A DNA stretch of 64,000 nucleotides from Planctomycetota bacterium (GCA_027623235.1 JAQBVJ010000007.1:1-64000); one strand, 5' to 3'; positions 7,427 through 20,031 are shown, numbered from the stretch's first letter. A program made the numbers and translations. Notes: generated by a model from the letters alone, not told the origin.

Positions 7427-7573
7427 TCGCATGCGCTGTGAGGTTTCGGCAAGTCCTGTTTCGGTCCATCCAGCTCATGACGGGTTGCCGGTCGAATCAC
7501 CCGCCTGGCCGTGGTAGGATTCACGGTTGACGCAGAAAGCCATTCTCTCACCTGTCCCAGGCGAGGTTTCAGA

Positions 7574-8632
7574 ATGCCGACACAGAATTCAGCACTGCCT
7601 CGACGAGCGTTCCTCGCCGCCGTCGCCGCCGGCAGCCTTGGCCCGAAAGCGTTCGGCGATCCGCTGATTCCTCACACGGTTGAGACCAGCGGCGTCCGCA
7701 TGATGACCGCCGAGACTCAGCGGTGCATCGATCGGGGGCTGCGCTGGCTTTCCGCCCGGCAGAATTCAGACGGAGCATTCGGAGTCGGCCGCGGCTACGG
7801 CCGAAACGTGGGAGTGGTCGCCCTCGCAGGGATGGCGTTTCTTTCCTCGGGCAGTACGGCGGGGCGAGGACCGTTCGGCGTTGAGGTCACTCGGGCGACG
7901 GATTTCGTTCTCAAAGCATCCCTGCCCAGCGGGTTCATCAACAACACGGAAGGGCAGTCGCACGGCCCGATGTACGGACATGGATTCGCGACGTTGTTTC
8001 TGGCCGAGGTCTACGGAATGTCCCGCCGGCGCGACCTGCGCGAGAAGCTGGAGCGAGCCGTCCGGATGATCGTGGCCTGCCAGAATAACGAAGGCGGATG
8101 GCGATACGAAAACGTTCCGAAGGAAGCTGACATTTCGGTGACAGTCTGCCAGATCATGGCTCTGCGAGCGGCCCGGAACAGCGGCATCTTTGTCCCGAAG
8201 GACACGGTCGACCGCTGCATCGAATACGTCTGCGGCTGCCAGAACCGTGACGGCGGTTTTCGCTACCGGCTCAAGCCGAGAAGCAGCAGCCAGTTCGCCC
8301 GGTCGGCAGCGGGACTTGTCGCGCTCTACAGTGCGGGTGTGTATGACGACCCCGCGATCACAAAGGGGCTGCAGTATCTCAAGACGCGCGTGCCGCGCGG
8401 ATTTTTCGAGGCTCACTACTGGTACGGCCAGTATTACGCCGTCCAGGCGATGTATCAGGCCGGTGGCGATTTCTGGGAGTCGTGGTACCCGGCAATCCGC
8501 GATCAGCTCACGCGGGACCAGCTCCCGGACGGAAGCTGGACCGACATGACATTTTCCAGCGAGTACGCAACGGCGATGGCTCTGGTCATCCTTCAGCTGC
8601 CCAATAATCACCTGCCGATTCTGAAGCGATGA
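7574..8632 (+). CDS. Tat-exported squalene-cyclase-fold protein
   Basis: Secreted protein of 352 residues with prenyltransferase/squalene-oxidase-type alpha-alpha repeats. The ATG at 7574 gives a twin-arginine signal (LPRRAFLAAVAAG); the longer frame upstream adds unrelated residues. The mature part has repeats of the type (helix)-Q-N-x-D-G-x-F/W: ARQNSDGAFG, ACQNNEGGWRY, GCQNRDGGFRY and QLPDGSW. The DxDD motif of true class II terpene cyclases is absent. Such proteins are abundant in Planctomycetota and are usually annotated from the fold only; a binding role is as likely as catalysis. The stop codon overlaps the start of the next gene (ATGA), so the two are probably co-translated. A second protein of this fold is at 18424-20031. 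Confidence 0.85.
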   Translation: MPTQNSALPRRAFLAAVAAGSLGPKAFGDPLIPHTVETSGVRMMTAETQRCIDRGLRWLSARQNSDGAFGVGRGYGRNVGVVALAGMAFLSSGSTAGRGPFGVEVTRATDFVLKASLPSGFINNTEGQSHGPMYGHGFATLFLAEVYGMSRRRDLREKLERAVRMIVACQNNEGGWRYENVPKEADISVTVCQIMALRAARNSGIFVPKDTVDRCIEYVCGCQNRDGGFRYRLKPRSSSQFARSAAGLVALYSAGVYDDPAITKGLQYLKTRVPRGFFEAHYWYGQYYAVQAMYQAGGDFWESWYPAIRDQLTRDQLPDGSWTDMTFSSEYATAMALVILQLPNNHLPILKR

Positions 8633-9888
8633 TGCCTCGCCTGCTCACGTACCGCCGCTTCGTCCTTGCCGTGGCCTGTCTGATCTGGTCGACAGCGTTT
8701 GTGTCTCAGCCGGCGAATGCTCAGTTGACGTTCCGCGCCGAAATGGCGAACGGGGAATCGATGACGGGGCGAGTGGCTTCTCTAACAAACGACGAGGTCA
8801 CGCTCGAAAGTGAATCCGGAACGGCGCACCGCATCGCCCTGGAGAATCTGATTTCGCTGAGGCAGCCGGTTCGCGCGGGCTGGAAGATTCTTCCGGCTGC
8901 TGGTCAGTCGTGGGTTTTTCTGGCGACCGGCGACCGGCTGTGCGTTGAGCCAACCCGGATCGACGACACCGAGCTGACCGCACGGTGGAACCGGTTTGAG
9001 GCACTGCCACCGATCAAGATTCCGCTCGAGGCCTGCCGCGGCGTCGCGTTCACGCTGCCTTCCGATTCCGTCAAGCAGGGGCTGCTGCTCTCGTCGATTA
9101 CCGATCGCACCGAGACGTCGGATCTGATCGTGCTTCGAAACGGCGACCGGTTGCAGGGTGAACTGGTCGGCCTGCAGGACGAGGTGGTCACGATCGAAAC
9201 GTCGCTCGGCGAAATTCAGCCGAAGGCTCGTCTTGTTGAGCGGCTGGTCTTTAACCCGGAGCTCACTTTTGCAGAGAAGCCCGAGGGGCTTGTCCGGACG
9301 GTGCTTCTGTCTGACGGAACAATCTTGAAACTGCAGGAGGCGACGGCGAACAGTCTGACGTTGACGGGCACTCTGCTCGCGGGAACAAAAGTCACGCTGC
9401 CGCACGAAGAAATTCACGAGCTGACGATTTCCGGCGGCGATGCCGTGCCGCTTGCAGAAATCACGCCGGACCGGCAAACGATCACTTCGTTTCTCGATAC
9501 AAAGCGTCCACCGCGCTTCGGCCGAAACGTGCTCGGCGGGTTCCTCACGATGCGCGGCCGACCGAGTCTCACAGGGGTCGGCGTTGTCGGTGGCACAACG
9601 CTCGAATGGGACCTCGACGGTTCGTGGAAATCGTTCCAGACGTCGGTGGGAGTCGACGATGCCGCACGCGGTCGAGGCAGCGTGATCTTTGAAGTTCGAG
9701 TCGACGATCGCTCCGTCTGGCGCAGCGAGGGGTTGACGGGATCTGACGAGCCAGTCGCCGTGCCACGGGTTGATCTCGCCGGGGCGAAGAAGCTCACGCT
9801 GCACGTCGAGTTCGCTCAACAGGGCAACGTGCTCGACTACGCCAACTGGGCGGACGCAGTGCTGATTCGCGGGTCATCACGAAAGTAA
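8629..9888 (+). CDS. Secreted protein with NPCBM-like C-terminal domain
   Basis: A 419-residue protein with a Sec signal peptide (hydrophobic core around residues 13-26, cleavage near ANA-Q at 32). The middle consists of repeated short beta motifs about 'LRNGDRLQGELVGL..EVVTIET' and 'LSDGTILKLQEATANSLTL', suggesting several small SH3-like barrels. The last ~130 residues (GGFLTMRGRPSL, VVGGTTLEWDL, then VGVDDAARGRGSVIFEVRVD and LHVEF) resemble the NPCBM/NEW2 carbohydrate-binding module. ATGATG at the start offers two start codons three bases apart, and it overlaps the stop of the cyclase-fold gene. Probably exported and carbohydrate-binding, working with its neighbour; the exact role is unknown. 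Confidence 0.8.
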   Translation: MMPRLLTYRRFVLAVACLIWSTAFVSQPANAQLTFRAEMANGESMTGRVASLTNDEVTLESESGTAHRIALENLISLRQPVRAGWKILPAAGQSWVFLATGDRLCVEPTRIDDTELTARWNRFEALPPIKIPLEACRGVAFTLPSDSVKQGLLLSSITDRTETSDLIVLRNGDRLQGELVGLQDEVVTIETSLGEIQPKARLVERLVFNPELTFAEKPEGLVRTVLLSDGTILKLQEATANSLTLTGTLLAGTKVTLPHEEIHELTISGGDAVPLAEITPDRQTITSFLDTKRPPRFGRNVLGGFLTMRGRPSLTGVGVVGGTTLEWDLDGSWKSFQTSVGVDDAARGRGSVIFEVRVDDRSVWRSEGLTGSDEPVAVPRVDLAGAKKLTLHVEFAQQGNVLDYANWADAVLIRGSSRK

Positions 9889-9927: not shown

Positions 9928-11214
9928 CTACCAGCGCCACGTCACGTTGGCGACATGAGTCGGAACGTGGGCTTCGTAGAACGATTTGCGATAGACGATT
10001 TCGCACGTGTTGGCATAGATCCGAAGAATCAGCAGGCCGAGCCGGTAGATCGGCATCAGCGGAATGGCCAGGGCGAGGATGCCGTCTCGCTTCCGATTCG
10101 GCGAGTAGTACATCAGCGCGACCAGGGGCAGGATTTCGGCGGCGACGGTGGCCGCGTAGATGGTCAGCCAGGTGTAAGGCTCCATGCCGAGCCCGCTCGG
10201 CTGCATCACCATGTAGACCAGCCAGGCAACCATCCCGTAACCGCACAGCAGGTTGAACGTCACGTTGTCGAGGAACGTGAAGAAGTTGGTCAGCATGAAG
10301 TTTTTGTGCAGCGGATTCGCGATGTCGTTGTGTTTTCTCAGGATGTGCCGCACGGGTCCGTCACCTTCCCAGCGGCGTCTCTGTTTGAAGAGAGCCTTCC
10401 ATTTCGTCGGCACTTCCGTGTGGCAGATTGCGTACTGAGCGAAGGCGATGCGGTAACCCAGTTTTCGGATCCTGATGACCATGTCGAGGTCCTCGCCGGG
10501 CCCGACGTCCCAGCCGCGCAAACGCTCGGACAGCTCGCGCCGGTAAGCGGCGAAGGCTCCCGAGGCGATCGGCAGGACCTGAAGCATGGCCGCCGCTTTG
10601 CGGCCGATGAAGATTGACTGCAGATACTCGACGGCCTGGAACCAGGTGCAGAGATTCGTAAAGGCGTTCCGCACACAGACTGTCGCGGAAACGACGCCGA
10701 TTGTTTCATCTTTAAACGGCTGCACGATCTCCCACAGCGAATTCGGTTCCAGTTGCGAGTCCGCGTCGACGGCAACAAGGACCTCGGCCTTCGTGTGAGA
10801 CAGTGAGATGTTCAGCGCGGAAGATTTGCCGCCTCGCCAGGGCCTGGTGATGACTCTGACGATTTCTGGATGAGCGAGCATGTACGGTCGCGCGGCAGCG
10901 GACATGCCGTCCGTCGAGCCATCGTCGATGACGAGCACTTCGAGGCGCGGGTACGTGCCGACGACGGACTCGATCGTCGCGGCCACCACTTCGGACTCGT
11001 TGAGACCGGCGATGACGACGCAGACGCTCGGGCAGTGGTCGTACTCTTCCTGGCCGCGTTTCGGATTGAGCGTGTCGGCAACCCAGTCGTAAAGACACAT
11101 GCAGGTCGTCGCGAGGCAGTACCGCGGGCCGTCCAGAAGCATCAGGCCGACCAGCAGCAGCAGCACCTCATTCCACGATCGATAAGAGAGCCAGTGGATC
11201 AAGTCGCTGAGCAT
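9928..11214 (-). CDS. Processive family 2 glycosyltransferase (Alg8-like)
   Basis: Membrane polysaccharide synthase of 428 residues. The N-terminal hydrophobic helix (about 15-30) precedes a GT-A domain. That domain carries VIDDGSTDG near 95-103, the metal-binding DxD at D150/D152 (AVDADS), the acceptor-site GED at 240-242 and the processive-enzyme signature QRRRW at 278-282. Several membrane helices close the protein. This motif set is shared by cellulose, hyaluronan, PNAG and alginate (Alg8) synthases. I chose the ATG at 11214, which overlaps the upstream gene by 47 bases; an upstream in-frame start exists. The adjacent PilZ protein and HlyD-like adaptor suggest c-di-GMP-controlled synthesis and export of a polymer. 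The sugar cannot be told from the sequence. Confidence 0.88.
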   Translation of the reverse strand: MLSDLIHWLSYRSWNEVLLLLVGLMLLDGPRYCLATTCMCLYDWVADTLNPKRGQEEYDHCPSVCVVIAGLNESEVVAATIESVVGTYPRLEVLVIDDGSTDGMSAAARPYMLAHPEIVRVITRPWRGGKSSALNISLSHTKAEVLVAVDADSQLEPNSLWEIVQPFKDETIGVVSATVCVRNAFTNLCTWFQAVEYLQSIFIGRKAAAMLQVLPIASGAFAAYRRELSERLRGWDVGPGEDLDMVIRIRKLGYRIAFAQYAICHTEVPTKWKALFKQRRRWEGDGPVRHILRKHNDIANPLHKNFMLTNFFTFLDNVTFNLLCGYGMVAWLVYMVMQPSGLGMEPYTWLTIYAATVAAEILPLVALMYYSPNRKRDGILALAIPLMPIYRLGLLILRIYANTCEIVYRKSFYEAHVPTHVANVTWRW

Positions 11215-12028
11215 CGTAGCCAACCAGTTCTTCTTCGGCGGCCTGATGAGCCGCGAACCGCGTTTCACAATTCAGACAGTGTCCGGTCTGCTCCAGGTCC
11301 TGGTCCTTCCAGCCGCACCCACGGCAGGTGAACTCGCCCGGCATGAATTCAAAATCTGTTCCCGCAACGAGTTTCTTCGTGAGGCACTTCGGGCACACGA
11401 GATCCTCACCCCGCTCAAAGTCCGTCGACGGCGCGACGAAGGCACACGGAAAATGATGGATGAGCAGACTGTGATCGAGCCGCCCGGAACGGCAGTTGCG
11501 ACAGGCAAACCGAAACGTCGGTACCGACCGGCAGCGAGGGCAGAGCATGACCCGGTCGAGTACCGAACGTTTCAGAATGCCCGCTGCTTCCCACGACTCG
11601 TAAACGGTCGGGGGAAACGGCAGTCGATACTGAAAAAGCTTCTCATCGAGAAACGGCTTGCGGCAGCGTTCCTCTAAAACGGAATTGGCGATGCCGTCAA
11701 ACGCGGCGCCGAACCGCGTGCCGTTCGCGCATTCGCTGCGATGGCGAACGGAAATGCCGGCGTAGCGAGTCACGCTGTCCGGGCACTCGACGCCGATTAC
11801 AAACGTTGACTGCGCGATCGGTGACTCGCTGTGAAGTTCGAATTCGACTCCGTCCGCGCTGATGTCCTTGAGGAATCCGCCGTACGGTGCCGACTCGTCG
11901 AGCTGTCCGTCGGCGCGCACACTCCACGCGACGAGCGGCAGAACTCGCGTCAATCGACGTTCGGTTCTCTCGTTGTGTCGTGCAGCGTCAATAATCGGGC
12001 TGGCTGCCGCCTGATTCAAAGTTGTCAT
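11168..12028 (-). CDS. PilZ domain protein with zinc-ribbon (TackOD1-like) domain
   Basis: Probable c-di-GMP receptor of 286 residues. The N-terminal ~110 residues form a PilZ domain with both ligand motifs: RxxxR at R24-R28 and DxSxxG at D55-S57-G60. The C-terminal half has paired cysteines of zinc ribbons (CPRC, CRNC, CPKC, CRGC, CLNC) and an HH pair (LLIHHFPCAF). This arrangement resembles the TackOD1 output domain. No membrane span is visible. Its 3' end overlaps the glycosyltransferase gene, indicating translational coupling. Together with the neighbours it looks like the regulatory part of an Alg44-type system. The PilZ call is strong; the TackOD1 name is from memory of the family. Confidence 0.8.
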   Translation of the reverse strand: MTTLNQAAASPIIDAARHNERTERRLTRVLPLVAWSVRADGQLDESAPYGGFLKDISADGVEFELHSESPIAQSTFVIGVECPDSVTRYAGISVRHRSECANGTRFGAAFDGIANSVLEERCRKPFLDEKLFQYRLPFPPTVYESWEAAGILKRSVLDRVMLCPRCRSVPTFRFACRNCRSGRLDHSLLIHHFPCAFVAPSTDFERGEDLVCPKCLTKKLVAGTDFEFMPGEFTCRGCGWKDQDLEQTGHCLNCETRFAAHQAAEEELVGYDAQRLDPLALLSIVE

Positions 12029-12180
12029 CGTGTTCCCCTCAGTGATGTCGCGTCGCTGGTCTCAAAGTGGCATGGGCATCCTGCCCATGAGTGTTCCGAG
12101 CGAAACACGGCCTGGAAGGCCGTGCCACGGGGAGAGTCCAACTGGACTCCGATGGTGGGGCTCGCTTCGCTCGGCCCACC
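12029..12180. repeat. Composite palindromic repeats
   Basis: The short gap between the PilZ and HlyD genes is filled by several palindromes: GGCATGGGCATCCTGCCCAT near 12070, ACGGCCTGGAAGGCCGT near 12105, and a third (GGTGGGGCTCGC...GGCCCACC) near 12153-12181. The first resembles the ends of the larger elements at 48058 and 53116, and the second recurs at about 53390. They probably form hairpins in the transcript between the two genes. Confidence 0.65.
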
Positions 12181-13614
12181 CTACTGAATGCGTACATTCC
12201 GAATCTGATTGATGGCGGCTGTGCGGGACTCATCGACGATCTGTTTCAGATCGTTGATTTTCTCGCCGTGTTTAATGCTCAGGTGGTTGATCCAGGTCAG
12301 CCGCACAACGGCTCCGATTTGAATTCCGGAATTCGCCGGAGTCAGAGAGAGAGACTTCGGCCGTAGCCGGATCGGCATCAGCTGCTGATCGCTGAGGTAG
12401 TACCTTCGCACGGCGGCCGGAGCCGATTCGAATCGCTCGCGACTTCCGACGACCGTGTAAGTCTGACTGCGGTCGAGCGGTTCGATGCTGAGCGTGACTT
12501 CCGTGCCAGGCGGCAGTGTTCGGCTTTCGTCCTGCGGCATGTAGAGCGTCGCTTCGAGCGAATTCGTGTCGACCAGGTCGAGGATTGTTTCGAGGCTGGC
12601 GACGCGCTGGCCGTCCATGTGGTGCACTTTCGTGACGACTCCGGCGACGGGTGATCGCAGCGCGCCCTCGTGAAGCTGTTCTTCGAGTCGGAAAAGTTCG
12701 GCCTGGAGAGACTCGATCCGGGCGAGGACCGGCTGCAGTTGATCCCAGCCGGCTTCCGGTTCTTCATCGTGAGCGGGTTCCGCCCGCTGCCGTCGCTTTT
12801 CGACGGCCGCTTCGAGCTTGGTGACGAGTTCCCGCAGGCCGGACTCGGCAAACTCAAGCCGCTCGACTTCTTCCTTCGCAATGAACTCGCCGACGCCAAG
12901 AGCTCGCTTGTGTTCCCGCTCGAGTCGCAGCAGATCCTGGCGGTTTTTCTGAAGCGATCCCCACAGTTCAAAATACTCAGCGGCGTTCTCGTTCGAGTCC
13001 CAGCGGATGCGCGACGCTTCCGCTTCGAGCTTTGCCCGTTCGATTTTCAGCTCGTCTCTGGTGCGGTCAATCTGCCGCTGGACTTCCGGGCTGACGACGG
13101 TTGCCAGAAGCTGCCCGGCCTCAACCGACTGGCCCTCGGCCACGTGAATCTCTTTCAGTTGTCCGTCCCACGGCGCGGCGACTCGCAGAGTGTCGCCCGT
13201 CATGACGCCGTACGCGGCAACGCCGACGAAGGAATCCCAGATGGCCCAGCCGACAGACAGGCAAATGCCGAACAGCATCGCACCGATCAGGAAGCGGCCT
13301 TTAGGACGCTTCGGCATCGGCTTTGGCGATGAGAATCCCGGCGAGTCCGCATCGACGTCACGCGGCCATTGAGGCTGCGCGACGAACGACGATTGAAAAC
13401 CGCGTGGAGCCGGGAAGTCCGGCACGCTGGTCGGCTCAGATGCCAGCGGCTTGACAGGAGTGGCCACGGCAACGACGGAGGGGGATTCGGCACTCGCCGG
13501 ATCGGCTTCTTCGACGTGACCCGGGAACCCTGGCTCCGCGCGGCCGGACAAGGCGTCCGGTGCGCTGCGAAGGTCCTGCACAACCTGTTCGATTTCCGGC
13601 AGCTCGTGAGACAC
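12181..13614 (-). CDS. HlyD-like periplasmic adaptor protein
   Basis: Membrane fusion/adaptor protein of 477 residues. It has a proline-rich cytoplasmic N-terminus of about 105 residues and one membrane helix at about 107-125. A first lipoyl-like half (APWDGQLKEIHVAEGQSVEA) comes next, then a long alpha-helical hairpin (about 175-310). The second lipoyl half is LRSPVAGVVTKVHHMDGQRV, followed by a beta-barrel region. The start is GTG at 13614, supported by a strong AAGGAGG site just upstream. Adaptors of this type join inner-membrane machines to export channels. Here there is no ABC or RND pump beside it; instead a PilZ protein and a GT2 synthase follow, as with the periplasmic part of Alg44. 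Export of a polysaccharide is therefore more likely than drug efflux. Confidence 0.85.
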   Translation of the reverse strand: MSHELPEIEQVVQDLRSAPDALSGRAEPGFPGHVEEADPASAESPSVVAVATPVKPLASEPTSVPDFPAPRGFQSSFVAQPQWPRDVDADSPGFSSPKPMPKRPKGRFLIGAMLFGICLSVGWAIWDSFVGVAAYGVMTGDTLRVAAPWDGQLKEIHVAEGQSVEAGQLLATVVSPEVQRQIDRTRDELKIERAKLEAEASRIRWDSNENAAEYFELWGSLQKNRQDLLRLEREHKRALGVGEFIAKEEVERLEFAESGLRELVTKLEAAVEKRRQRAEPAHDEEPEAGWDQLQPVLARIESLQAELFRLEEQLHEGALRSPVAGVVTKVHHMDGQRVASLETILDLVDTNSLEATLYMPQDESRTLPPGTEVTLSIEPLDRSQTYTVVGSRERFESAPAAVRRYYLSDQQLMPIRLRPKSLSLTPANSGIQIGAVVRLTWINHLSIKHGEKINDLKQIVDESRTAAINQIRNVRIQ

Positions 13615-13804: not shown

Positions 13805-14956
13805 TTACGGATCGATCCCACCCGGGAACTGCGGGGTGAGCCAGACATCGGCGGGATATGGCTCTGTGATTTCACCGAGTTTCTCGTGACGCCGCGGTGA
13901 GGTTTGATCGGCAACGGCCTCACAGAAAATGGCTCGCGGCGATTGCGTCTCAAGTTTCTCCTCGACTTCTTCGCTGATTCGATCGTACTCGTCGTTTTCA
14001 AATTCGATCTCTTCTGCGGTCGTGAGGTTTGCGTGGATGTACTGCTCAAGATGTTCGGCCAGGTCGTTGGCGGTCAGGCCGTCGTGAATAAAAATGACCC
14101 GGTCGCGAATCCGGTCCCATTCGAGTGCCGAAACGCCTGAGGACACGATCCAGGATTCCCGCAGTTGATTTTCCAGGAACTCGTTAATCTGCTCGCGCCA
14201 GATCGATCGAATCTGCTGGACCACTTCCAGGTTGTCTGCTGTCGACAAGGCCTGTGAAGTCTCCTCTTCGGAAGACGATTCTCTGCTGAGGCCGCTTTCG
14301 AAGGCCGTTTGAATTTCTTCCTCCGACGGACCGCCACGTTCGATTCGCCAGTCCATGTCGCGCGCCCAGGCGTCCTCGAATCGCGAAGGGAATGACTCGG
14401 CGCTCGTCGCCACGGTTGGCTTGTCGGGACGGTCGGCGATCACCGCGTCGATCAGTTCGGCCGTCGGAATTCCCGTTCGAAACTCGAACGTCGTCCACGG
14501 CGGGTTTCCCATGTGATGATTCGGCCCAGTGCTATAGGCGAAGAGCGTGCCGTCCTCAAACTCGCAGCCGGCTTCGAACCACAGACCGGCGACGGGGTGT
14601 TCGTAGATCACGACGAAGAGGTTCTGGTCGGCAAGGTGCCAGGCTTCCAGCAGCACGGTGGGAGGCGACGTTGCGAAGCGACCGATCCGGACTCCGCCGC
14701 GTGAATCGAGATCTTCGCAAATCGCGTCGAAGGCACTGGTGTCGATCCACTCACGATGGTTGGCCGGTTCGAGCTTGATGCGAAATGGCGGGACGGTTTC
14801 CGACATCGCCTCCGCTGCGTCCATCAGTCCGCTGTACGGGCTGCCGAGCTTCCCCATTTTTCGACGCAGAAAAAAGTACCCGATCACGATGAGCAGTCCG
14901 AAGAGGACAACCGCCCCGACGACGACCGCACCGACAATTTTGAAAAACGTTTCCAT
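13805..14956 (-). CDS. Membrane-anchored protein of unknown function
   Basis: A 383-residue protein with a single N-terminal membrane helix (about residues 7-29, very Val/Gly/Leu-rich) and a large hydrophilic part. The C-terminal third is highly acidic (SEEE, SSEEETS, TTAEEIEFENDEYD) and probably helical. I see no catalytic motif. It follows no obvious partner and is separated from the HlyD gene by 190 bases in which I see nothing. The ATG start is clear. Reading-frame length and codon use support a real gene. Confidence 0.7.
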   Translation of the reverse strand: METFFKIVGAVVVGAVVLFGLLIVIGYFFLRRKMGKLGSPYSGLMDAAEAMSETVPPFRIKLEPANHREWIDTSAFDAICEDLDSRGGVRIGRFATSPPTVLLEAWHLADQNLFVVIYEHPVAGLWFEAGCEFEDGTLFAYSTGPNHHMGNPPWTTFEFRTGIPTAELIDAVIADRPDKPTVATSAESFPSRFEDAWARDMDWRIERGGPSEEEIQTAFESGLSRESSSEEETSQALSTADNLEVVQQIRSIWREQINEFLENQLRESWIVSSGVSALEWDRIRDRVIFIHDGLTANDLAEHLEQYIHANLTTAEEIEFENDEYDRISEEVEEKLETQSPRAIFCEAVADQTSPRRHEKLGEITEPYPADVWLTPQFPGGIDP

Positions 14957-15108: not shown

Positions 15109-16251
15109 TCAAGCCGCGCGGCGGGCCGACGTCCGGGTTTCGTGCAGCTCTTCGTAAAGCCGCACGGTCTGATCGAGCATGTCGGAAAGCTGAAACTGAG
15201 TGACCGGTGCGACCGGCTGCGCGTCCGACGACAGAAGCACTTGAGCCTGCTGCAGAAGCTCTGTTTGATTTTTCGGCGCGACAAGCCCCGATGGAAAGAC
15301 CTCGGTGAGAATCTCTTCGACGCCTCCGTGAGCGTACCCGGCCACACGCGTGCCCAGGCTGAGCGCTTCGAGGACCGTTCGCCCGAACGACTCCGGTTTG
15401 GACGAGAGCGACAGGACGAGATCCGAAACCGAGTAGAGCTCCTTCATGTCTGTACGATGTCCGGTGAAAGTGATGTGTTCTTCGAGTTTCATCGCGCGGA
15501 CCAGTTGGCGAAGTTCCTCGCCGAATCGTTGTTTGCGTGGGTGTTCGCCGCCAACGATCAGGCCGTGAACCGGCAGACCACTGTCAACCAGTCTGCGAAT
15601 CAACCGAGCGAAGTCGTCGTGCCCCTTCAGTCGCGTGATCCGGCCGGGAAGCGTCACCAGTTGCCGACCGTACGCTCGTGGAAAGTCCCAGTAGAACCGA
15701 TCGATCCACTCGGCCGACGGTTGGAATGCGCGAGGAAACTCGGCGGGATCAACTCCTCGATAGATGACGCGAATTCGTTCTTCGGGCGTCGAGTAGTTTT
15801 TGAGGATGTACTCGCGAATCGTTTTTGAAACGGCGATGACGATCTCGCCACTGGTCATGACCTCGCTGAACCGGCTGACGGAGTGCAGTCCGTGCAGCGA
15901 CGTGATCAGGCGAGGGCGATTGCCGGCCGGCAGTTTTCGCCAGGCGAGCTGAGTGATCCACGCGGGAATTCGAGATGCCGTGTGGACGATGTCAATGTCG
16001 CCGCGCGAGAGCAGATCGCGGACGAAGCCGACGTGCCGTAATGTCAGGAGCGACTTCGCTCCGACGTTCCGGGTGATGTGCGTGCTGCCCTCCCGCTCAA
16101 GCTGCTCGACCATGCGCCCGCCGGCGGAGAGGACGATCGACCGGTGCCCGCGCCGCGCGAGCTCGGCAGCGACCTCGACAGTCCCGCGCTCGACACCACC
16201 CGCGTGAAGCGCGGGGACAACCTGTAACACGGTGAGCGGTCGAGCGGGCAT
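15109..16251 (-). CDS. GT4-family glycosyltransferase
   Basis: Glycosyltransferase of the GT-B fold, GT4 family, 380 residues. The N-terminal domain opens with VLQVVPALHAGGVERG, the typical GT4 glycine loop. The C-terminal domain has VTLPGRITRLKGHDD and the EX7E signature region SSKPESFGRTVLEALSLG with HGGVEEIL. I start at ATG 16251; the preceding codons lie in repeat-like DNA (GGGCATCCTGCC...), and the outermost start is a TTG. It probably transfers a sugar from a nucleotide donor to a surface glycan or lipid; the sugar is not predictable. It stands apart from the larger polysaccharide locus at 36-46 kb. Confidence 0.88.
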   Translation of the reverse strand: MPARPLTVLQVVPALHAGGVERGTVEVAAELARRGHRSIVLSAGGRMVEQLEREGSTHITRNVGAKSLLTLRHVGFVRDLLSRGDIDIVHTASRIPAWITQLAWRKLPAGNRPRLITSLHGLHSVSRFSEVMTSGEIVIAVSKTIREYILKNYSTPEERIRVIYRGVDPAEFPRAFQPSAEWIDRFYWDFPRAYGRQLVTLPGRITRLKGHDDFARLIRRLVDSGLPVHGLIVGGEHPRKQRFGEELRQLVRAMKLEEHITFTGHRTDMKELYSVSDLVLSLSSKPESFGRTVLEALSLGTRVAGYAHGGVEEILTEVFPSGLVAPKNQTELLQQAQVLLSSDAQPVAPVTQFQLSDMLDQTVRLYEELHETRTSARRAA

Positions 16252-16353
16252 CCTGCCGTCCTCAATGAGTGTTGGCCGCGAGTCCATCCGCGACAATTTC
16301 GTCGGGACGGTATACGAGGGGGCGAAAACCGGTCAATGGGGATGAATCGCGTG

Positions 16354-18423: not shown

Positions 18424-20031
18424 CTACTCCGCGTCGTAAATCGGGTAGTGCCGGTACGGCGTTTCCAGGATCAGCAGGGACAGCGCGGTCAGGTATAACC
18501 GGCCAGCTTCGCGTGAGTATTCCGCGTTGGCTCCGTACGGCGAAACGGGATCCCAGCTGCCTTGAACATCGTCGGGGGCTTTGCGGCTGCCTCGCCGTTT
18601 CTGAGCCTCGACGATCTGCGTCTGCAGGCCGCTGTACCAGGTCTTCCACTCAGCACCGCCAATGTTGTGCAGGACCTGCGCCGAGTAGTACCACTCGTAA
18701 ACGTTTCGTTTTCCCGGCGCCCATTCCGGTTTGTTTTTCTCGTCCAGCAGGTACTTCACACCCTGCTTCATGGCGATGTCATCTTTCTGCCAGCCCAGCC
18801 ACTGCCGACCGAGCAGGCCGACCGCGGTTAATGCCGGCGTGAATTTTGTTTCGTGGTCCGAGGGCTGGTAGCGGTAGTGAGCTCCCGATGAGTCGGCGAC
18901 CTGGTCCATGAAAAACGAAGCCCGCGAGAACGCTTCGTCCGGAACGTCGACGCCGGCCATCCGGGCGGTGTGAAGTGCCATCAGGCACCAGCCGGTCACG
19001 GAGAGGTCGCCCATCGAGTCCTCGTCCTGCGGCATGTACTTCCAGCCGCCCTGCGTCGGGTGCTGCGAGTCGAGCAGGTACTGCACGCCGGCCTCGGCAC
19101 ACTCGCGAAACGTCTCGTCGCCGGAAAGTGTGATCACTTCGCAGATCGCGATGACTGCCTGGGAGTGCGCGTAGAACGAGCTTTGACGCCCCATCTCGGT
19201 GTGATCGTGAAAATCCCCGTCGACTTTCTGAGCACTCCGCAGCCAGCGCAGACCCTTCGCGACTTGCTCCTGGTATTTGCCGGTGCGATGCGTGTGCCCG
19301 TCGCCGAGCAGCGCGAGCAGTGCCAGCGCGGTCGCTCCGGTGTCGGTGCGGAAAGTCCGGCTTCCCGGATCGGGATACTGCCCTTCCGAGTGGAGCTGCC
19401 AGTTTCCGCCCGCCCGCTGCTGCCGCACGACCCAGGCGATCCCGGAATCCACCGCCCGCTTGATCGCATCTTTGCTGCCGACGGAATCGAGAGCTCCCGC
19501 CTTCGCACGCTCGGTTCGTCCGGCCAGCGATTTCTCAACAGGCACGGGCTGGATCGGGCGGACGACCTTCTCGCCTTCACTGACTTTCGGCGTCGTTTTG
19601 ACTTCCGTCTTCGGCGTGACCTTCGGCATCGACAGAACTTTGACGGGCTTGCGAATTTCCTTCGGCAGTTCCTTCTCAGAAGTCTTCGTGTCGACGAGCC
19701 AGGTCCCGAGCAGCGGGGCTTCCGAATCCAACTGCGACACGACGGCAAACAGCGTCAGAATAAACAGGATGACCGCGTGCAGCAGAAAACTCACAGCGAT
19801 GCCTGGCACGCTGGTTTTGACTTCCAGGACGTCGATCAGAGACTTGCTGGCTTCTTCACTGACCTGAACGAGCGGCGGCGGAACTGCGGCGACATTCTTC
19901 GAAGCACGCCGCATCGCCGCTTCTTCGCGGCTGATCTTCCGTTTTCGCCCTGCCGGCACTTTCTGTGCGGACGGGCGAGCCGGGCTCGTGCGACGCGCGG
20001 GCGTCCGTCTTTCTTCAGGAGAATCAGCCAT
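18424..20031 (-). CDS. Membrane-anchored squalene-cyclase-fold protein
   Basis: A 535-residue protein. The first 60 residues are very basic and Ser/Thr/Pro-rich, followed by one membrane helix (about residues 75-97, ISFLLHAVILFILTLFAVVS). A linker with PVKVLSMPKVTPKTEVKTTP follows, then the alpha-alpha barrel repeats seen in squalene/prenyl cyclases: GIAWVVRQQRAGGNW, GLRWLRSAQKVDGDF and GVQYLLDSQHPTQGGWKYMP. As with the protein at 7574-8632 there is no DxDD catalytic motif. The topology (basic cytoplasmic tail, single span, large outer domain) differs from the Tat-exported relative. ATG start clear. The gene is divergent from the TGS GTPase gene, with about 180 bases between them. Confidence 0.85.
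   Translation of the reverse strand: MADSPEERRTPARRTSPARPSAQKVPAGRKRKISREEAAMRRASKNVAAVPPPLVQVSEEASKSLIDVLEVKTSVPGIAVSFLLHAVILFILTLFAVVSQLDSEAPLLGTWLVDTKTSEKELPKEIRKPVKVLSMPKVTPKTEVKTTPKVSEGEKVVRPIQPVPVEKSLAGRTERAKAGALDSVGSKDAIKRAVDSGIAWVVRQQRAGGNWQLHSEGQYPDPGSRTFRTDTGATALALLALLGDGHTHRTGKYQEQVAKGLRWLRSAQKVDGDFHDHTEMGRQSSFYAHSQAVIAICEVITLSGDETFRECAEAGVQYLLDSQHPTQGGWKYMPQDEDSMGDLSVTGWCLMALHTARMAGVDVPDEAFSRASFFMDQVADSSGAHYRYQPSDHETKFTPALTAVGLLGRQWLGWQKDDIAMKQGVKYLLDEKNKPEWAPGKRNVYEWYYSAQVLHNIGGAEWKTWYSGLQTQIVEAQKRRGSRKAPDDVQGSWDPVSPYGANAEYSREAGRLYLTALSLLILETPYRHYPIYDAE

Follow-up and report, generated by a model that had tools for sequence, protein, structure and literature searches.

Several bacterial exopolysaccharide systems controlled by cyclic di-GMP (c-di-GMP) have been described, and they differ in how the signal reaches the synthase. 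In Pseudomonas, the family 2 glycosyltransferase (GT2) polymerase Alg8 is activated via the PilZ receptor of Alg44, a protein whose periplasmic part is HlyD-like (PMC8461298). In the Pel and cellulose systems, PelD and BcsE receive c-di-GMP through a dead GGDEF domain with an RxxD motif, the inhibitory site (I-site); how such a receptor turns on its synthase has been termed unresolved for Alg44 and PelD (PMC8461298). For cyanobacterial cellulose, XcsAB-TolC has been proposed as a tripartite exporter combining a membrane GT2 under PilZ control, an HlyD-like adaptor and a TolC-like channel (PMC12430437). Here, we analyzed a stretch of 64,000 nucleotides from a Planctomycetota bacterium (GCA_027623235.1 JAQBVJ010000007.1:1-64000), hereafter the window, in which three adjacent minus-strand genes are transcribed in the order HlyD adaptor, PilZ-TackOD1 protein and GT2. 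Judging from their domains, the conservation of their order, overlap and motifs, and the exchange of receptors on a GT2 tree, these genes probably constitute a c-di-GMP-gated module for synthase-dependent exopolysaccharide production, in which TackOD1 links an exchangeable receptor to the GT2 and the HlyD protein guides export. The gene trio had been proposed from the nucleotide sequence alone (the sequence-only reading), and the open reading frames, Pfam matches and fold comparisons agree with that proposal.

The GT2 matches PF13641 (E 3e-32) and PF00535 (E 1e-28) and has all the hallmarks of processive GT2 enzymes: DxD, (G/T)ED, QxxRW and C-terminal membrane helices. Its motifs, read earlier as DxD, GED and QRRRW, are present as described. 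Across 23 relatives, no variation occurs in DxD (D168/D170), in QRxRW or in the D of GED; the E of GED does vary. Membrane helices are located close to the N-terminus and within the last third of the protein, and the C-terminal tail is strongly conserved in Planctomycetota (consensus FVPxHVRxxTWxW; HVPTHVANVTWRW in the window). The best NCBIfam match is PgaC/IcaA, at 122 bits well short of the equivalog cut-off of 422; weak matches to HpnI, HpnB and MftF were also obtained, and the alginate polymerase model is not among the matches listed. From the weak kinship to PgaC and the GH18-like partners of some relatives, one might guess, and only guess, at an amino-sugar polymer.

The middle protein matches TackOD1 (PF18551) with an E-value of 1.6e-25 (90.2 bits against a cut-off of 32). 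Five CxxC and one HxxC motif, the pattern of this family, whose function has been termed obscure (PMC5847659), are invariant or nearly so in the relatives and predict metal binding. An AlphaFold model built from 26 relatives reached a mean pLDDT of 91; in a fold comparison with the PDB its N-terminal half matched best the PilZ domain of BcsA (4hg6/4i86), then VCA0042, MapZ, YcgR and Alg44 (4rt0), so that a PilZ beta-barrel can be predicted with confidence, while no fold match stood out for the TackOD1 half. Viral glycoproteins returned by a PDB sequence search with the whole protein were dismissed as chance matches. Both motifs attributed to the PilZ domain, RxxxR and DxSxxG, are present in the window, the first being R21-xxx-R25 by alignment to relatives (R24-xxx-R28 fits too), and both are intact in 10 of the 14 rows of the PilZ set. 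The protein is predicted to act as a cytoplasmic c-di-GMP receptor and co-polymerase subunit. Its gene overlaps that of the GT2, as had been pointed out. The listed GTG start of the GT2 at 11268 gives 446 amino acids and a 101-nucleotide overlap; the start common to relatives is the ATG at 11214, with an overlap of 47 nucleotides. This overlap recurs across the PilZ clade, at 44-47 nucleotides in most members and 56-83 in two, which suggests translational coupling of the two genes.

Relatives of the module were collected from two sets of genomes. Of 392 planctomycete genomes, 21 encode a protein related to the middle one, in most cases through the TackOD1 half only, and about 85,000 species genomes yielded 31 loci when scanned. 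In a phylum-wide draw, a related GT2 lies near TackOD1 in at least 14 of the 20 loci examined, and an adjoining HlyD gene was found in two more. Genes for HlyD, the TackOD1 protein and the GT2 occur together in Pirellulales, Gemmatales, Phycisphaerae, metagenome-assembled genomes (MAGs) of Planctomycetaceae type, the complete genome K23_9 and Bacteroidota MAGs. The gene order of the window, which the sequence-only reading had suggested looking for in other Planctomycetota, is conserved in many of them: it recurs in Pirellulales, Gemmatales, Phycisphaerae, Planctomycetaceae, genome G185 and also Bacteroidota, in some loci with a cyclase gene inserted, and two Pseudomonadota MAGs (one Gammaproteobacteria, one Alphaproteobacteria) have the order TackOD1, GT2, HlyD. 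A second full set in the same order, with a PilZ-TackOD1 protein, is present in the window's own genome (G000, contig C25, locus L028, 8882-12655, plus strand). The GT2 of this paralogue is 49% identical to that of the window, and its second PilZ motif reads EISLAG, with E for D; this residue may be compared with E44, which is needed in Alg44 (PMC8461298). The constant part of the module is TackOD1, the GT2 and HlyD, and the signalling domain varies. The earlier description of a TackOD1-like zinc ribbon was right as to the family, but the domain is the core of the middle protein, not an added extra. Likewise, the c-di-GMP-linked synthesis and export module without a name has been borne out, but not its restriction to planctomycetes.

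The PilZ domain stands N-terminal to TackOD1 in the window, in the L028 paralogue and in the loci of Pirellulales, Gemmatales and Phycisphaerae, and a receiver (REC) domain takes this place in Planctomycetaceae-type loci, most of which also encode an intact diguanylate cyclase as a separate protein. In four loci (L030, L059, L062 and L063) the REC-TackOD1 gene has as its neighbour a separate, complete GGDEF protein (CBS-GGDEF in L030, 9519-11562), suggesting a local supply of c-di-GMP to the synthase. Most other Planctomycetota have a GGDEF-like domain C-terminal to TackOD1. Alignment of these domains to the intact cyclases of the four loci revealed the active site in 0 of 16 planctomycete copies, and the I-site arginine in 15, the aspartate in 16 and both in 15; these two residues form the best conserved columns of the aligned stretch. 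An arginine located 22 positions beyond the start of the active site, presumably the place of the third inhibitory-site residue of PleD, is kept in 13 copies. A GT2 tree was computed from 37 rows, with the motif-poor L056, L061 and L070 scored as PilZ. In it, the dead-GGDEF rows and the REC rows each fall on one side of a branch, and the three receptor labels need two changes, compared with 15.5 in shuffles. PilZ and REC together form a fully supported clade with REC nested in PilZ; the tree is midpoint-rooted and does not give the order of receptor gain. As relatives have a dead GGDEF domain, its I-site intact, on the same TackOD1 core, the receptor appears to have been swapped in evolution while the core and the synthase stayed. 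With less assurance than for the module itself, we lean towards TackOD1 being the part that couples receptor and enzyme in a widespread class of c-di-GMP-gated polysaccharide synthases, so far undescribed, in Planctomycetota, Bacteroidota and Pseudomonadota. In this class the receptor would have been exchanged on a fixed core, being PilZ, a dead GGDEF that keeps its I-site, or a receiver with dedicated cyclase.

The adaptor matches HlyD_3 (E 5e-17) and lipoyl domains. Its model comprises a disordered cytoplasmic N-terminus of about 100 amino acids, one membrane helix (residues 107-130) directly preceded by a conserved KRPKGR-like motif, and, beyond the helix, lipoyl and barrel domains with a long alpha-hairpin, resembling EmrA and MacA. 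The motif RxxxLxxxxxxS, with which the hairpin tip of classical adaptors docks to TolC, is not clearly kept in the window adaptor, and docking is therefore not claimed. Since HlyD proteins usually serve pumps, the likeness to EmrA and MacA and the weak HpnI, HpnB and MftF matches could also mean that the GT2 is an HpnI- or HpnB-like lipid or protein glycosyltransferase, merely adjoined by an HlyD gene with a separate efflux function. We regard this as the least likely of the alternatives weighed here: the invariant QxxRW and the C-terminal membrane helices mark processive synthases, and the HlyD gene stays with the pair across phyla without a transporter gene. In 40 related genomes, only two adaptor relatives have E-values below 1e-50, the HlyD protein of the L028 set and that of a further HlyD-TackOD1-GT2 locus; the E-values of all other HlyD relatives exceed 1e-9. 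The sequence-only reading had named ABC or RND pumps next to close HlyD relatives as a finding that would speak against it; no ABC, RND or MFS pump gene adjoins the adaptor, and TackOD1 and the GT2 adjoin it in all close relatives.

The proposed export module would operate as follows. At the inner membrane, the GT2 would polymerise an activated sugar and extrude the resulting chain, with the soluble PilZ-TackOD1 protein docked on the enzyme's cytoplasmic face. Upon binding of c-di-GMP in the PilZ pocket, zinc-bound TackOD1 would relay the change and the synthase would open. Anchored beside the GT2, the HlyD adaptor would guide the chain through the periplasm to a TolC-like channel whose gene lies at another site in the genome. 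In relatives with the same TackOD1 core, the signal would enter not through PilZ but through a dead GGDEF domain whose inhibitory site is intact. The window's genome encodes 6 GGDEF proteins and many TolC-like proteins.

Several observations weigh against this reading. The Pfam match to PilZ (PF07238) is sub-threshold (E 0.063, 14.0 bits against a gathering value of 22.5), and a PilZ profile search of the window's own genome missed the domain for the same reason; the early doubt was resolved because the AlphaFold fold matches PilZ domains. Within the PilZ clade, L056, L061 and L070 lack both motifs and L065 lacks one, and the dead GGDEF domains of Bacteroidota and Pseudomonadota carry RxxD in 4 of 10 copies only. 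The TackOD1 loci L042 and L044 have no GT2 nearby, no TackOD1-GT2 fusion was seen among the loci, and an outer-membrane channel gene was looked for near the window triad and not found. TackOD1 genes also occur in archaeal type IV pilus loci, and the domain is not exclusive to synthases (PMC5847659). Some of these points would suit a different arrangement, in which the synthase and adaptor are real and the middle protein is a scaffold or a metal or phosphorelay sensor whose PilZ or GGDEF remnants no longer bind c-di-GMP: motifs are lost in some PilZ copies, receiver domains are common N-terminal to TackOD1, and the CxxC and HxxC motifs predict metal binding. Such a scaffold or sensor is nevertheless unlikely, given that exactly the R and D of the I-site are selectively retained in the dead GGDEF domains of planctomycetes, that both PilZ motifs are kept in most of the clade, the window included, and that the REC variant is accompanied by intact cyclases.

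The features of the c-di-GMP-gated module and its surroundings are listed in the table below. The 383-residue protein encoded directly upstream of the HlyD gene has one apparent N-terminal membrane segment; it matches no Pfam family and is not conserved beside other triads. The GT4 gene is not common to the relatives, nor is the gene that converges on that of the GT2 and encodes an NPCBM carbohydrate-binding protein. Prenyltransferase/squalene-hopene-cyclase-like alpha-toroid repeat proteins flank the cluster, one on each side. In L059 (3529-5883), L060, L062, L063 and L064, which have the module in its Planctomycetaceae form, two conserved divergent genes with no family assigned lie upstream of it. 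Some TackOD1-GT2 clusters, in Planctomycetota as well as in Bacteroidota, include a TolC-like protein that carries a GH18-like domain (HLDVEPH motif), possibly a channel with a built-in glycan hydrolase. An orphan protein with the same GH18-like domain is encoded in the window's genome (contig C245, locus L101, 8791-11079, plus strand), and its layout resembles that of a K23_9 gene (L061, 9767-11962, weak CBM30 match) that converges on the triad there; a tie of this GH18-like/CBM-like orphan to the window's triad is conjectural.

Table. Features of the HlyD, PilZ-TackOD1 and GT2 locus, its neighbours, and TolC-GH18-like fusions in related loci (positions in the window unless a locus is named)
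Feature	Position	Strand	Evidence
HlyD/EmrA-type periplasmic adaptor, 477 aa	12181-13614	minus	open reading frame, Pfam, model
PilZ-TackOD1 protein, 286 aa, without membrane helix	11168-12028	minus	open reading frame, Pfam, model
PilZ domain, aa 16-130, R21/R25 and DISADG (55-60)	11639-11983	minus	alignment, fold
TackOD1 zinc-binding domain (predicted), aa 141-273, five CxxC and one HxxC	11210-11608	minus	
Processive GT2 glycan synthase, 428 aa from conserved ATG	9928-11214	minus	
Overlap of PilZ-TackOD1 and GT2 genes, 47 nucleotides	11168-11214	minus	start-codon comparison
383-aa protein	13805-14956	minus	
GT4 gene	15109-16296		
NPCBM carbohydrate-binding protein	8629-9888	plus	
Alpha-toroid repeat protein	7511-8632	plus	
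Alpha-toroid repeat protein	18424-20031	minus	
TolC-GH18-like fusion gene, L033	8287-10398		
TolC-GH18-like fusion gene, L034	11294-13405		
TolC-GH18-like fusion gene, L066	4295-6394		
TolC-GH18-like fusion gene, L068	4315-6408		

If the reading of a gated synthase holds, TackOD1 would gain a concrete, testable role. The loci would then also draw attention to a class of synthases that may produce matrix polysaccharide in Planctomycetota and Bacteroidota, two phyla about whose polymers of this kind little is known. The pairing of a single synthase partner with either of two unrelated c-di-GMP receptor domains would amount to a natural experiment on GT2 switching. A literature search, for which subscription papers were mostly out of reach, found no description of this architecture and no name for it.

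The sequence-only reading had called the locus a split Alg8/Alg44, which holds as a functional analogy but not as demonstrated descent. A diverged alginate-type system, with Alg44 split into PilZ and HlyD genes and an alginate-like uronic polymer as product, would account for the same three functions and for Alg44 among the fold matches; Alg44 also links PilZ to its membrane-fusion domain via one helix and contacts Alg8 (PMC8461298). We consider such a system very unlikely: the constant and defining partner is TackOD1, which Alg44 lacks, PilZ is replaceable and indeed replaced in most relatives, the adaptor resembles EmrA and MacA, and the GT2 matches no alginate polymerase model among those listed and PgaC/IcaA best. 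Among the neighbours scanned in the window and the loci no algG-, algK-, algX- or algE-like gene was found by domain, the whole genome not having been searched for them. Alg44 combines PilZ and HlyD-like parts in one protein, whereas the window and all relatives read have them in separate open reading frames, with TackOD1 on the receptor and the order HlyD, receptor, GT2. BgsA, the mixed-linkage beta-glucan synthase of Sinorhizobium, is likewise a c-di-GMP-activated GT2, and its operon also encodes an HlyD-like protein. However, c-di-GMP is bound by the C-terminal tail of BgsA itself, with no PilZ (PMC5567048). XcsAB-TolC differs in that PilZ is part of the synthase, TackOD1 is absent and the product is cellulose. 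The commonest form among the relatives resembles PelD and BcsE in its dead GGDEF domain with an intact I-site; Pel, however, employs the soluble GT4 PelF with PelD, PelE and PelG and no TackOD1, whereas the window has PilZ and the relatives a GT2 in place of PelF. Archaeal TackOD1 shares the same five CxxC and one HxxC and also follows receiver domains, but the copies described there belong to type IV pilus loci of thaumarchaea and not to synthase operons (PMC5847659). The module is thus like Alg8/Alg44, BcsA or Pel in its working, yet it is a member of no named system.

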